Positions 3,145-41,577 of a DNA stretch of 52,343 bases are shown here, piece after piece (within the stretch, counting starts at the first letter, position 1; each line of letters starts with the position of its first letter). The notes under the pieces are model-generated. The model made no database searches and was not told the origin of the DNA. It saw only the letters and a program-made list of their open reading frames with translations. A program made the position numbers and the translations under genes. The stretch lies in assembly GCA_003989075.1 (NCBI GenBank), contig RXIX01000011.1, forward strand, positions 1-52,343. Direction: 5' to 3'. This DNA is from Candidatus Competibacteraceae bacterium (GTDB lineage Bacteria; Pseudomonadota; Gammaproteobacteria; Competibacterales; Competibacteraceae).

Positions 3145-4128
3145 TTACGCGACATCCTTAAACCAAACCGCCAGTTTTTCCTTTTCTTCCTTGAATCCCG
3201 GCCGCGCGAATACAAAGTGACCACCCGGGAAGATCATCTGTTCGAAAGAAGCAAACTGTTGCGGCACTGGGGAATTCCATTCCACGATGGAAGCCGAGGG
3301 CATCACCAGAAAGTCATGCTCGCCGACCATATTGAAGAAATGGATGTTGGATACATCGCCGTAGAAGTGGAAGGATTCCTTGGTTTTCTCGCCTGATGCA
3401 AAACCTTCCTCCAGAATGTCCATCAGCGCCGCGAACGGCACCCAGCGGTCATCGCAGGTGAGCATCAGTGCTTCCGAGAACGTCTTGGGTCCGGCCTCCC
3501 AGAAACGCTGCCAGAACCATTGCGTCATTGAATTGCTGGTGCCCTGCATTATCATCATATCGAGTGTAAACAGGGAAATGCCGCTATTCTCCAGGGCCGG
3601 TCGATAGGGCTTCATTGTGTGGTAAAAATTCAGGAAGGTTCTGCCCATTCCCAGGTCGCGACTGCCGAGAATCGGTGAGCCATAATAGGCGATCTTGTGA
3701 AACCGCTTTGCGTAATCCTTGTCGTTCTGCATCTTCCGGTTAATGAGATGCGAGGTAATCAGACCGCCAATACAGATGCCGAAGATATTGAGGCTATCCA
3801 CTCCGTATTCTTCAAGCAGTGGCGATATAGCCTTGTCGTTCAGAGTATCGGCCAGTTTGTCCAGTGTCCAGCCGGACAGGGTAAAGATGCTTTCCTTGCC
3901 CCAGTCCATCAGATATACATCAAAGCCGTGCTTATTGAAGAAGGAAATAAAGCTGTCGTCGTTAAAGAAGGTTCCATAGGCCCGGGTCATGATCGAGTAA
4001 TTCAGGATCAGGGGGCGCTTTTGCCGCTTGCCTGCTTCGGGCTGGGCAGGGAATTTCCAGATATTGAAATTGCTATCCTGGTAATAGGGCTGCGCGTTGG
4101 AGTTCGCATAAAAGATGGGGTCTAACAT
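3145..4128 (-). CDS. PhaC-like alpha/beta hydrolase (class III PHA synthase family)
   Basis: The 327-residue protein has the PHA synthase form of the lipase box, GICIGG, with Cys119 as nucleophile. It also has the family motif VYLMDWG, an acid at D272 (GEHDFLV) and a His at H304 (PGGHF). The Cys-to-Asp spacing of 153 residues equals that of Allochromatium vinosum PhaC (C149-D302) as I recall it, and Asp-to-His is similar. Such enzymes polymerise hydroxyacyl-CoA at granule surfaces. Class III synthases need PhaE, and neither PhaE nor phaAB genes are in the window, so this may be a diverged paralogue or a hydrolase. The first in-frame start is TTG at 4143; I prefer ATG 4128 because GAGGG lies 6 bases before it. 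Base composition looks lower in GC than most neighbours. Confidence 0.72.
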   Translation of the reverse strand: MLDPIFYANSNAQPYYQDSNFNIWKFPAQPEAGKRQKRPLILNYSIMTRAYGTFFNDDSFISFFNKHGFDVYLMDWGKESIFTLSGWTLDKLADTLNDKAISPLLEEYGVDSLNIFGICIGGLITSHLINRKMQNDKDYAKRFHKIAYYGSPILGSRDLGMGRTFLNFYHTMKPYRPALENSGISLFTLDMMIMQGTSNSMTQWFWQRFWEAGPKTFSEALMLTCDDRWVPFAALMDILEEGFASGEKTKESFHFYGDVSNIHFFNMVGEHDFLVMPSASIVEWNSPVPQQFASFEQMIFPGGHFVFARPGFKEEKEKLAVWFKDVA

Positions 4129-4177
4129 GTTGCCCTCGTTCAACTTGCATTATGGTTTTGGGCGAACGGTACGGTTA

Positions 4178-35810: not shown

Positions 35811-38447
35811 TCAGGACAACAAGTCACGCAGACGGCACAGAGCCGCACGCGCCTGTTCGGGATCCAGCGTCGCCGGATCCGCCAGTGCTGCCAGCGCCAC
35901 CAGCGCCGGATGCGGCTCGGCTTCAAACAGCGGCAACTGCGCACCCGCGGTACGGGCCGGCGCGGCGCGGTGCAGCATCTGCCGCTCCAGCAGGCGCAGA
36001 CGCTGGCGGGCCTGCTGAATCACCACTGCCGGCACGCCCGCCAGTGCCGCTACCTGCAAACCATAGCTGCGGCTGGCCGGTCCGTCGCGTACCTCGTGCA
36101 GGAAGACGATGTGCTCGCCGTGTTCAAGCGCATCCAGATGCACATTGGCAATGCCGGGATGCTCGTCGGGCAGCCGGGTCAGCTCGAAATAATGGGTGGC
36201 AAACAGGGTGAAGGCGCGCACCGTGCCGGCCAGATGGGCGGCGCAGGCCCAGGCCAGGGCCAGACCGTCGAAGGTACTGGTGCCACGGCCAATCTCATCG
36301 ATCAGCACCAGGCTGCGCGGCGTGGCGTTATGCAGGATATTGGCCGCCTCGCTCATCTCGACCATGAAGGTAGAGCGGCCGCTGGCCAGATCATCAGCAG
36401 CGCCAATACGGGTAAAAATGCGGTCGAGCGGTCCGATCACCGCCCGCGCTGCCGGGACGAAACTGCCCAGGTGGGCCAGCAGGGCGATCAGCGCCACCTG
36501 GCGCATGTAGGTGCTTTTACCGCCCAGATTGGGGCCGGTGACAATCAGCATGCGCCGCTGTTCGGCATCCAGGCGCAGGTCATTGGCCACGAACGGCACC
36601 TCAAGCACCTGTTCCACCACCGGATGGCGACCGGCCTCGATGCGCAGACCCGGCTCATCGACCAGTTCCGGCCGCTGCCAGCGCAGAGCAACGGCGCGCT
36701 CGACGAGATTGGCCAGTACGTCCAGTTCGGCCAGAGCGGCGGCGCTGGCCTGCAGGGCCGGCAATGCACTGATCAACTGGTCCAGCAGGGCATCGTAGAG
36801 CGCCTTTTCCCGCGCCAGGGCCTGCTCGTGGGCATGCAGCACGGTGTGCTCGAAGGCCTGCAGCTCGGGCATGATGTAGCGCTCGGCACCCTTGAGGGTC
36901 TGGCGACGATGGTAGTCGGCCGGCACCGCCTGAGCCTGGGCGCGGCTGACTTCAATGTAATAGCCGTGCACCCGATTGAAGCCCACCTTGAGCGTGGCAA
37001 TGCCGGTGCGGCTGCGCTCGCGCTGCTCCAGTTCGATCAGATACTGATCGGCGTGCTCGCTGAGGCTGCGCAGGCGGTCGAGTTCGGCATCATAGCCCGG
37101 CGCGATCACTCCGCCATCCCGCAGCAGTTGTGGCGGCTGTGGTCGCAGCGCGCGCTGCAGCAGTTCGCAGATCGCCGGATGGGTGCTGGCGCGGTGGGCC
37201 AGTTCGCGCAGCAGCGGGGCCGTGTGGCGGGCGAGAATCTCCTGCACCTGGGGCAGGCGCGCCAGAGCATCGCCCAGTGCGATGAGATCGCGTGGCCGCG
37301 CCGACTTCAGCGCCACCCGGGCTAGGATGCGCTCCATGTCGCCGCTGCCGCGCAGCACGCCGCGCAGCGCTTCATGATCGCCGCGTTCGAGCAGTCCCTG
37401 CACGCTGTCGAGGCGCTGGCCGAGCACCACACGGTCACGCAGCGGTCGATGGGTCCAGCGGCGCAGCAGGCGTGCGCCCATCGGCGTCACGCAGCGGTCG
37501 AGCAGGCCGATCAGGGTATGTTCGGGATGGCCGCCGAGGCTGTGCTCCAGTTCCAGATTGCGCCGGCTGGCGGCGTCGAGAATCACGCTGTCCTCATGCT
37601 GCTCGACGCGCAGACCGTGCAGATGCGGCAGGGCGCTGCGCTGGGTATCCTTAACGTATTGCAGCAGGCAACCGGCGGCGGCCACCGCCAGCGGCAGCCC
37701 GGCGCAGCCAAAGCCGTGCAGGTCATGCACCGCAAATTGGGTGCACAGGGCGCGGCGACCACTGTCGGCATCGAAATGCCAGGGAGCCTGCCGGCGCAGG
37801 CCGGGATGCTCGCGCCACGTCCCCGGCAGCGCGGCATCGTCGGCCAGCAGCACTTCCGCCGGTTGCAGCCGCTCCAGCTCGCTGAGCAGCGCCGCTTCGC
37901 CGCTGATCTCGCTGACCACGAAACGCCCAGCGCTGAGATCGAGGCTGGCCAGGCCATAGCGATCCTTGCTCTGATGCACAGCCAGCAGCAGGGTATCGCG
38001 CCGCTCATCGAGCAGCGCCTCATCGGTAAGCGTGCCCGGGGTAACGATGCGCACCACCTGCCGCTCCACCGGGCCCTTGCTGGTGGCCGGATCGCCGAGC
38101 TGTTCACAGATCGCCACCGACAGGCCGCGTTTGACTAGCCTGGCCAGATAATTCTCGACGGCGTGGAACGGTACGCCGGCCATCGGAATCGGCGCCCCGG
38201 CTGACTGGCCGCGACTGGTGAGCGTGATGTTGAGCAGTTCGGCAGCGCGCCGGGCATCCTCATAGAACAGTTCGTAGAAATCGCCCATCCGGTAAAACAG
38301 CAGGACATCCGGATGTGCGGCCTTGATGCGCAAATACTGCTGCATCATCGGGGTATGCTGGTCGAGATTATCCACTGGAGTATCCGTGCCGTGATGGGCC
38401 GGGTTGCGAAAAGGAGATGGCATCGCTGCTGTTTCAGGCGCATCCAT
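35811..38447 (-). CDS. mutS: DNA mismatch repair protein MutS
   Basis: MutS recognises mismatches and recruits MutL. The 878-residue protein (E. coli 853) has the mismatch-contact motif GDFYELF in the N-terminal domain, Walker [10 protein letters not shown], Walker [17 protein letters not shown] and the C-terminal helix-turn-helix. The N-terminus is extended relative to E. coli; a second ATG at 38423 would shorten it by 8 residues, and neither has an evident RBS. It is preceded by the foreign-looking helicase gene, 47 bases away. Confidence 0.97.
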
Positions 38448-38494
38448 GAGTGCGGCGTCCAGGATTCAGGTTTATGGCAATACTGCACAGGAGA

Positions 38495-40471
38495 TTATAA
38501 ATCCTCAAGACCAATCCTATGAAAATAATCGAACGTATGATCATAGAATTCATGCAATCGGGTCGGGTCTTCATCATCGCCATGCGGAACAAAAATAACC
38601 ATGCCCTGCCGGGCACGCGTCAACAGAACACGATAGGCGTTTTTAAGATAAATCTGCCGCTGTTCCTTTCGAATGCGATTCCATCTGTCGCCCACAAATG
38701 ACCAATGCTGCCATCCAGCAGGAGAATACCGGAAATCAGCATCCCATGCGACGCACGCCCAATCAAGTTCCAGGCCCTGCACCTGAAATTCGGTCGCAAC
38801 ATCTTCCATATAATAGGATGAACGAACATCGTCCTTGCCATCCAGAAACCAGTGGATCGGATCAACCGGTGATTTAACGTCGATCGCATGCGGCTTCAGG
38901 CGCTGTGCCTGCGACGAAACGACAACGCCATATCGCTCCGATCCTCGCGCCTTTTTTCTGAGCCATTTTTTTGCTTTTGCCAGGTCGCGCGTCATGACGA
39001 TAGGGTATTTTTCTCTGATCTTTTCAAGCATCTCGCTGGCCTGACCGGCCTGCAGATCCAGCAACTGCTGGACAAACAGCGCAAGGTGCTCAGCGCGAAA
39101 GGAACGCATGGAAACCGCGAGATGCAACTCGTCCCGGAAGGCAACATGGGATAGCTGTTTGATTTTCTGCAGCATGTCCTCCGCCCGGTACTCCGCGCCT
39201 GCTAGACGGGGAGAGATATAAACATGCCAGTCGGGAAATGATCGCAACAGTGACTCCAGCCATTCACTGATACCGGCTTCACCTGTATTGATTTCCTGTC
39301 CACCACCGACCAGACATACGACCACAGCCCAATCAGGATGACGATCGAGACAGGAAATCAGAAACTCGGGTTCTGACCTATTAAAATCAGCTTTATCCCG
39401 CTTGCGGCTCATAAAGTTGACCGTTTGCTGCAAATCCCAAGCGCGCTGTGCCTCATCAAACAGCGCTACATGTTCAATCGGTGGTTTTTTTATATCAATC
39501 AGGCATTCATCACGAAAATGATGTACGTTCTGGATGAATGCCTTGACCTCACTCCTCGCATGACCCTTACGTGATGTCCTGCCGGATTCTCTTGCCCGCT
39601 TCACTTGGTCGCGCGCTAGGGCTTCGCGCAGCACGGCAACTAGCGGACCGTTTCCAGAGAGAAAAACGCTGTAAAGATCAGTGTCCCTGTCAAGATGCCG
39701 GGTTGCGATATTCAGTCCAACCAGGGTTTTTCCAGAACCGGGCACACCCGTCACAAAGCAAATGGATTTATGGCATTGTACTTTTGATTCATGAATGATA
39801 TCCGAGATCGTGTCGGATGTTATTCCGAGATTGATCGCGCCGGCATCACTGCGGGAAATCTCGCTGACGGAATGGCCACTATAAAGTGCCATTGCGGCTT
39901 CTATGATAGTTGGGGTTGGTTGATACTGGCTTTGTTCCCACTCAACCGGATCCAGGCTTTCTCCATTAAAAAACCGCAGAACATCAGCAATTATATTGGG
40001 CAGTATTTTTGAATTGGCAAGAATGGGTGAAATAATGCCATCCGAGCCTGATTCAATAGAAGTCGTTGTAAATTTTACATTTGACTGAGTCGATATCAAT
40101 ATGGGAACTATAGTGGCATGATGACTTTTTTTATGAAAGTTTTTGAGGTCAAGCGCATAATCAAAAACCTGGTCAATTGCACAAACCGGAAATTCCTTTT
40201 CGCCAACCTTGAACTCCAGAACAAAAACAACCGATTCGATCAGCAGAACAACATCAATTCTTTTTCCCATGCGTGGAATGGAGTATTCGAAATAAATACG
40301 ACCAGCATAAGGACCGAGGGTGTTTTTTAGAATGGAAATCTGTTCAGCCCAGGCATTTCTTTGCGTCTGCTCCAGCGAAAACGCATGTTTCTCTACCAGT
40401 TTGCCAAGAATTTCCTGTTCGGAAGCCAGGAGGAATTCCCCTATTGTGCTTCCGTAGTGCCATCTTTTCAT
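38495..40471 (-). CDS. PD-(D/E)XK nuclease - Schlafen-group-3-type helicase fusion (DUF2075)
   Basis: The 658-residue protein joins two modules. Residues about 20-165 contain a PD-(D/E)XK-like core, D73 in KRIDVVLLI and E86-x-K88 in VLEFKVG. Residues about 230-650 form the DUF2075 helicase domain with Walker A GVPGSGKT (242-249), DEAQ box (339-342), [11 protein letters not shown] and LTRARQG motifs of superfamily 1. The same Pfam domain covers the helicase part of animal Schlafen group 3 proteins. The gene is visibly AT-richer than mutS and corA on its sides, suggesting transfer. It has no partner genes and is divergent from corA. Defence or DNA/RNA processing is inferred; no experiment on a close relative is known to me. 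Confidence 0.8.
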
Positions 40472-40614
40472 AAGCCACTATTTCCTTGTATTTTTTTTGC
40501 CCTTCGCTTAAATTTCCCGCCCTGAAGAATGACCCAAATCCGCACCAGCGCATTGACCTGCTGCAGATTCTCAACCATGTTCCACGCTGCCATTCTACCT
40601 GCCGGGAAACTCGC

Positions 40615-41577
40615 ATGATCAATGCCTTCGAACTGCGCAACGGCCGTCTGCAGCAGCTCCAGGTGGAGAGCCGCGAGGATCTGCAACAGGCCAAGCCCAT
40701 CTGGGTTGATTTCGATTCGCCGACCGATGAAGAGCGACAGTGGGCGCGGGAACTGTTCAACCTGACCCTGCCTGATGAGGACGATTTTGGCGATATCGAA
40801 GCCAGCGCGCGCTGTTTCGAGGATGCCAGCGGTGCCCTGCAGATCCGCTCCGATTTCCTGCTCGACAAGGATGACGAGTCGCGCAACATCCCGGTCGCCT
40901 TCGTGTTCCGCCAGGACATCCTGTTCAGCCTGCACCAGGAAGATCTGCCGGTGTTCCGGCTGCTGCGGATGCGTGCCCGCCACCAGCCCGGCTATCTGGA
41001 AGACTGTCGCGACGTGCTGCTCGACCTGTACGCCACCGATGCCGAGTATTCCGCCGATGCTCTGGAAGGTGTCTACGAGGCGCTGGAGGAGATTGGCCGC
41101 CGGGTACTCAATGCACGCCTGACCGACGAGGATGCCGCGGCAGTCCTGTCCAGCATCGCCCGCGAGGAAGACCTGAACGGGCGCATCCGCCGCAACCTGA
41201 TGGATACCCGCCGCGCCATTTCCTACCTGATGCGCCAGCGACTGCTGTCGCCCGACCAGATCGAGGAGGCCCGGCAGATTCTGCGCGACATCGAATCGCT
41301 GGACGGGCACACCTCGTTTCTGTTCGACAAGATCAACTTTCTGATGGACGCCACGGTTGGCTTTATCAACATCAACCAGAACAAGATCATCAAGATCTTC
41401 TCGGTGGCCTCGGTAGCACTGCTGCCGCCAACCTTGATCGCCAGCATCTACGGCATGAATTTCGATTTCATGCCGGAGCTGAAATGGGCGATGGGCTATC
41501 CCTTCGCTCTGGGCCTGATGCTGACCTCAGTGGCGGCGCCGTTCTGGATCTTTCGCCGCAAGGGCTGGCTGAAGTAG
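40615..41577 (+). CDS. corA: CorA magnesium/cobalt transporter
   Basis: The 320-residue protein is a pentameric Mg2+ channel of the inner membrane. It has a long cytoplasmic funnel (about 1-250), then TM1 with the GMN motif (YGMNFDFMPELKW) and TM2 ending in FRRKGWLK. Length and motif are standard. The start ATG 40615 has GGGA 8 bases upstream; an in-frame start at 40486 adds 43 residues not typical of CorA. It is divergent from the nuclease-helicase gene and convergent with tatC. Confidence 0.94.
   Translation: MINAFELRNGRLQQLQVESREDLQQAKPIWVDFDSPTDEERQWARELFNLTLPDEDDFGDIEASARCFEDASGALQIRSDFLLDKDDESRNIPVAFVFRQDILFSLHQEDLPVFRLLRMRARHQPGYLEDCRDVLLDLYATDAEYSADALEGVYEALEEIGRRVLNARLTDEDAAAVLSSIAREEDLNGRIRRNLMDTRRAISYLMRQRLLSPDQIEEARQILRDIESLDGHTSFLFDKINFLMDATVGFININQNKIIKIFSVASVALLPPTLIASIYGMNFDFMPELKWAMGYPFALGLMLTSVAAPFWIFRRKGWLK

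Follow-up and report, generated by a model that had tools for sequence, protein, structure and literature searches.

The phage-defence candidates (PDCs) are gene families derived from a 'guilt-by-embedding' survey, which is cited in PMC12988326; according to PMC12988326 and PMC11514479, most of these candidate families are experimentally uncharacterized. Activation by phage SSB has been reported for the nuclease-helicase proteins Nhi and Hna, and the triggers given for Nhi, Hna, Hachiman and AbpAB are phage SSB or replication intermediates (PMC10732053). Neither full-length SLFN11 (PMC9482658) nor full-length SLFN5 (PMC8789055) hydrolyzed ATP under the conditions tested, according to these papers, which also describe the Schlafen linker as a mixed alpha/beta domain of unknown function with a conserved SWAVDL motif (residues 444-449 of SLFN11 and 424-429 of SLFN5). 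The literature searched contained neither PDC-S41 by name nor an experiment on any member of that family, and the publications found on DUF2075 and PF09848 mention these domains in passing, PMC10121019 excepted.

The window (the whole stretch of DNA that was analyzed, 52,343 nucleotides) carries at positions 38495-40471, on the minus strand, an intact ORF of 658 codons with an ATG start and a product of 658 aa. The gene, its domains and its surroundings are as follows:

38495..40471, minus strand: PDC-S41-type gene, predicted PD-(D/E)XK nuclease fused to a Schlafen group 3 SF1 helicase (intact ORF and PADLOC match)
39956..40471, minus strand: N-terminal PD-(D/E)XK nuclease domain, residues 1-172 (AlphaFold2 model, VIA-align)
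39770..39955, minus strand: connector, residues 173-234, a conserved stretch and a helix ahead of the helicase (alignment of 33 relatives)
38585..39769, minus strand: Schlafen group 3 SF1 helicase domain, residues 235-629 (PF09848 and PDB profile matches)
35811..38447, minus strand: mutS, native flank (five Pfam MutS domains; 77-79% identical to mutS copies of the same family)
40615..41577, plus strand: corA, native flank (PF01544; 80-87% identity to the nearest corA copies of the family)
38448..38494, no strand: 47-base gap from the PDC-S41 stop codon to mutS, the mutS-side end of the insertion
40472..40614, no strand: divergent intergenic stretch up to corA, in parts still like the empty junction of relatives

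Residues 1-658 match the PADLOC profile PDLC05014 (PDC-S41) over its positions 1-653 of 657 (959 bits, E 2.7e-289), and by this match the gene is a member of an already catalogued phage-defence candidate family. A one-gene defence candidate was what the sequence-only reading had proposed, and the independent presence of the family in PADLOC, again with candidate status, agrees with it. Defence is thus a well-supported candidate function of the gene.

The same reading had placed the gene alone between mutS and corA, as indeed found: mutS lies on the same strand as the nuclease-helicase gene, and corA on the opposite one. Of the proposed island insertion, only the insertion itself (approx. 2 kb) stood; it consists of a lone gene and, in this genome, lies outside any longer island. 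No other defence gene was found beside it. Neither a methyltransferase nor a McrB partner adjoins it, the flanks being mutS and corA, which rules out membership of a restriction-modification or McrBC system. There were no convincing direct or inverted repeats marking the insertion ends, and a consensus scan for a dedicated promoter gave matches at about the chance level, none of them upstream of the start codon. Elsewhere in the window, a TTG-start ORF (3145-4143, minus strand), which reads by eye as a PhaC/alpha-beta hydrolase-type protein, lies within a stretch of 51% GC, below the rest of the window.

The codon usage of the gene differs clearly from that of its surroundings. It has a GC3 of 0.47, falling to 0.40 over its first third, compared with 0.73-0.81 in the flanking housekeeping genes mutS, corA, tatC, purK, hisA and hisF, which bears out the earlier suggestion of an AT-rich, acquired gene. 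A homologue was present in none of the 36 other genomes of the same family; in a sample of 274 genomes of the class, nine carry the gene, the window's own genome included. In three same-family genomes (G021, G015 and G016) mutS and corA are directly adjacent, that is, the empty junction that the sequence-only reading had told us to look for exists in close relatives; in the remaining corA-bearing relatives mutS was not near corA within the stretch compared. The nuclease-helicase gene is a recent single-gene horizontal acquisition, and the empty-site comparison supports PDC-S41 as a mobile cargo gene.

Two further relatives carry other cargo at the same place. In one (G018, locus L092) the mutS-corA junction holds a PIN toxin with a MazE/VapB-type antitoxin (a VapBC-type pair). 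In the other (G023, L139:3880-7450) it holds approx. 3.6 kb of cargo. Among the products encoded there are a PIN protein of the PDC-S70 family (E 5e-35), one that matches PD-Lambda-2 B over profile positions 1-82 (E 6.7e-19), one that reads by eye as Rpn-like, and one whose tail resembles PEP-CTERM. With three different loads seen so far, the junction is a small hotspot at which cargo has inserted repeatedly in this bacterial family.

Residues 1-183 were not recognised as a nuclease by Pfam alone, and a distant relative matches HSDR_N (E 1.2e-4). An AlphaFold2 model of the N-terminal domain (pLDDT 90.9) revealed an alpha-beta-beta-beta-alpha-beta PD-(D/E)XK core, composed of helix 35-51, strands 58-65, 70-78 and 81-88, helix 96-112 and strand 120-127. 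In this model D73 lies on strand 70-78, and E86 and K88 on the adjacent strand 81-88. The residues concerned are:

40286..40288, minus strand: E62, invariant acidic residue of the first core strand (alignments of 40 and 20 sequences)
40253..40261, minus strand: R71-I72-D73, with the putative catalytic motif II aspartate (D73 at 40253-40255); R71 and D73 invariant in both alignments
40208..40216, minus strand: E86-F87-K88, putative catalytic E-x-K; E86 and K88 invariant in both alignments
40157..40171, minus strand: Q101-V-F-D-Y105, helix motif past the catalytic core; Q101 and Y105 invariant in both alignments

When the protein is aligned with 33 relatives, E62, R71, D73, E86, K88 and Q101 do not vary. 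None of these six varies in a set of 40 sequences either, to which relatives from viral contigs were added and in which identity falls to approx. 30%. Together with W41 and Y105 they are also kept in a set of 20 sequences with plasmid-borne DUF2075 proteins, where identity falls to 16-18%; this invariance is far above chance. The intact D73 and E86-x-K88 noted from the letters were therefore not only present but invariant to 16-18% identity. The best fold matches of the domain (VIA-align) are Cdn1 (Z 8.7), Can2 (8.4), McrC (7.8) and NucS/EndoMS (7.8), followed by the weaker Hjc (Z 6.6) and NucC (Z 6.1), and Foldseek also returned PD-(D/E)XK nucleases. With the exception of SLFN14, the top 50 VIA-align rows are what we take, from their titles and known families, to be PD-(D/E)XK proteins. 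Residues 1-172 are thus predicted by the model to fold as a PD-(D/E)XK nuclease, with both the core and the D/E-x-K residues in place. Of the two results that would have refuted the sequence-only reading, homologues at this place in every relative and an N-terminal model lacking the nuclease fold, neither was obtained.

The second domain, residues 235-629, matches the Schlafen group 3 helicase PF09848 (E 4.1e-85; 286.6 bits against a Pfam cut-off of 24). Its motifs are:

39725..39748, minus strand: Walker A, GVPGSGKT
39443..39466, minus strand: Walker B, ALFDEAQR
39290..39316, minus strand: motif CLVGGGQEI
38762..38791, minus strand: a further SF1 motif
38609..38635, minus strand: motif YRVLLTRAR

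Walker A, Walker B and motifs III, V and VI are intact, as expected from the first inspection of the gene, and their key residues are invariant in relatives. With a score past the curated cut-off and the SF1 motifs complete, the domain is, as judged from its sequence, an SLFN-g3 helicase, and the predicted fusion of a PD-(D/E)XK nuclease to a Schlafen-type helicase stood on both sides. A model of the full protein (pLDDT 87) matches UvrD (Z 20.4) and SLFN11 (Z 18.9), as well as HelD, Pif1 and RecD2, and the nuclease domains of AddAB and AdnAB are also among the structural matches. In searches of the PDB with a wide-family profile, SLFN11 (E 2.5e-7) and SLFN5 (E 3.3e-6) ranked first, through the helicase only, and these two are the nearest solved helicase relatives by sequence. 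Because neither showed ATP hydrolysis, translocation by the PDC-S41 helicase is not guaranteed.

A scan of 84,980 species genomes gave at least 564 confirmed stretches encoding a relative. The best 80 of these at least 564 carry 22 phylum labels, are 63-70% identical and have a nearly constant length of 655-660 aa. In the tree of these 80 there are 32 label changes (the least possible is 21); the phyla cluster more than shuffled labels do, yet they are mixed, with Chloroflexota and Bacteroidota as close sisters (L004 and L005), and mis-binning of MAGs may lie behind some of the cross-phylum placements. Relatives were found in only four of 72,556 plasmid records (at E 1e-5), 11 times among 2.9 million viral contigs and once in 50,697 phage records. 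Their rarity in viral contigs and phage records led us to reject phages as the main source of the gene. In one genome (G052, L002/L003, C40:105592-107570) a related gene lies in two overlapping frames, split near residue 424, owing to either a frameshift or a sequencing error.

The surroundings of the family members elsewhere are rich in PADLOC matches. The 142 adjacent genes matched 71 PADLOC models at E 1e-15, compared with 11 models for 145 genes of the same loci at a distance of over 4 kb; these figures count models and not proteins, exaggerate the contrast wherever many models hit a single protein, and control only partly for gene type. Among the neighbours are SoFic, Vsr-like endonucleases, AIPR, HipA, PIN, HNH and LexA-type proteins, and a distant PDC-S41 relative lies directly beside mcrC (L127:202-2247, mobilizable plasmid pCXA of Exiguobacterium aurantiacum). 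There is no conserved partner gene among these neighbours, the commonest close ones (Vsr-like proteins and a second nuclease-helicase) occurring in at most five loci.

In five loci (L030:817-3228, L031, L036, L044 and L077:5685-7871) a second PF09848 helicase gene is located 27-127 bases upstream. In L030 it encodes a PD-(D/E)XK-like domain, the helicase and an S24 (LexA/UmuD-like) peptidase, in L077 a GIY-YIG domain, the helicase and an S24 peptidase, and in four loci a small MazG-like ORF adjoins it. These second genes gave weak, partial PADLOC matches only; the helicase-S24 product is possibly an undescribed self-cleaving, SOS-linked defence protein.

The best explanation of these observations is that the gene encodes a horizontally acquired, single-gene immune enzyme, a candidate reading to which we assign a probability of roughly 0.58. 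It is supported by the full-length PADLOC match, the modelled nuclease fold with its conserved catalytic residues, the invariant helicase motifs, the recent lone insertion at a cargo junction, the patchy cross-phylum spread, the PADLOC-rich neighbours and the relative beside mcrC. It is weakened by the solitary position of the gene here, by the lack of ATP hydrolysis in SLFN11 and SLFN5, and by the counting of models among the neighbours. We infer DNA as the substrate, phage as the target, the loading signal, and direct cleavage over cell suicide. The SF1 helicase/translocase would load onto foreign DNA, most probably at ends or single-stranded stretches arising from the replication of phage or plasmid DNA; ATP-driven movement would then bring the DNA to the N-terminal PD-(D/E)XK nuclease, which would cut it in a metal-dependent manner. 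Self would presumably be told from non-self by the state of the DNA and not by methylation, since no modification enzyme (methyltransferase) or antitoxin travels with the gene. By analogy with Nhi, Hna, Hachiman and AbpAB, sensing of DNA state is a natural proposal.

The same two domains could serve abortive infection, in which the helicase would sense a phage replication intermediate and free the nuclease to act on host DNA (or RNA), so that growth stops before phage release. PF09848 is listed among abortive-infection Pfams (PMC10121019), the AbpAB nuclease and helicase pair halts growth on a phage SSB trigger (PMC10732053), and the CRISPR- or CBASS-activated PD-(D/E)XK nucleases Can2, Cdn1 and NucC are among the closest folds. 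However, the protein has no sensor or signal-binding domain besides the helicase, and the near-constant length of its relatives leaves no extra domain; we therefore put direct DNA degradation first and consider abortive infection unlikely.

A nuclease joined to an SF1 helicase is also the plan of RecBCD and AddAB, and the structural matches to AddAB, AdnAB and UvrD, together with the mutS gene next door, would suit an accessory DNA repair or recombination enzyme (RecB/AddAB/Dna2-like) with no part in immunity. The absence of the gene from each of the 36 other genomes of the family and from the majority of the class, its recent acquisition and foreign composition, and the toxin-antitoxin cargo at the same junction in relatives make such a role improbable. 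A system directed against plasmids or conjugation instead of phages is more improbable still: a DNA-targeting nuclease-helicase need not tell plasmid from phage and relatives are scarce on plasmids, but such scarcity is equally expected of any chromosomal gene, and a few plasmids do carry relatives.

The antiviral RNase of animal Schlafens is located in the SLFN core domain. Since that domain is absent here, with no Pfam match to AlbA_2 (PF04326) at E up to 1, the shared helicase alone cannot carry an antiviral claim; the earlier statement that this is the helicase of antiviral Schlafen group 3 proteins was correct as to the helicase family, but the domain with the antiviral RNase is missing. 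The protein is not a Schlafen proper, residues 1-172 having a fold different from that of the SLFN core tRNase.

A structural link to Schlafens outside the helicase was observed in the VIA-align results. All rows of the top 50 were recognised as PD-(D/E)XK apart from those of human SLFN14: the nuclease domain superposes on SLFN14 residues 390-551 (Z 6.6, rmsd 3.8 over 132 residues, 17% identity), and on residues 401-552 in a second row (Z 6.2), although a Z below 8 can reflect a common arrangement. The matched segment is the Schlafen linker (SWADL) domain, directly ahead of the homologous helicase, and the whole PDC-S41 model (residues 1-630) aligns to SLFN11 396-899. In sequence, PDB profile searches find Schlafens via the helicase only, and a nuclease fold is not among the descriptions of the linker in the Schlafen papers found by keyword search. 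It is possible, if on balance doubtful, that a PD-(D/E)XK nuclease has decayed into the linker of the vertebrate group III proteins; the linker and helicase of SLFN11 and SLFN14 would then be collinear with the bacterial single-gene nuclease-helicases and of common descent with them. The SWAVDL motif would then fall near nuclease motif II (D73 here), as judged from the aligned ranges only. If the match is real, this functionally open Schlafen domain would acquire a fold and a bacterial relative, human SLFN11 and SLFN14 would have a nucleic-acid-handling module in common with a bacterial nuclease-helicase, and the bacterial protein would represent the catalytically intact form of the Schlafen linker-helicase module.

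Compared with described systems, the protein is indistinguishable from PDC-S41 of PADLOC, with the same length and the same two domains. Nhi and AbiO likewise place a helicase and a nuclease in one protein and are comparable in how they may work, but the similarity to them is confined to approx. 40 residues at Walker A (E 1.8e-5 for AbiO, E 4.6e-5 for Nhi), and membership of either system was rejected for lack of a full-length match to their PADLOC profiles. The wider bacterial and archaeal DUF2075 nuclease-helicases, on Hymenobacter, Streptomyces and Methanosphaera plasmids (L129-L135), are 16-18% identical to the protein and keep both its nuclease catalytic residues and its helicase motifs. 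They form a subfamily of their own; in many of them an insert separates E-x-K from Q101 and the helicase is shorter, and some have a C-terminal S24 peptidase. On a mobilizable plasmid of Hymenobacter canadensis (L129:904-4890) two different DUF2075 nuclease-helicase genes stand in tandem, with a DUF4747 protein and integrase fragments nearby.

The animal group III Schlafens (SLFN5, SLFN11 and SLFN14) have the helicase family in common with the PDC-S41 protein; they possess the SLFN core (AlbA_2) tRNase domain that it lacks, whereas its PD-(D/E)XK active site is intact and their linker is described in PMC8789055 as 'of unknown function'. The nearest solved folds of the N-terminal domain are the Can2/Cdn1/Card1 and McrC-type nucleases (Z 6.3-8.7); their CARF or AAA+ partner is absent here, and an SF1 helicase is fused to the predicted nuclease instead.
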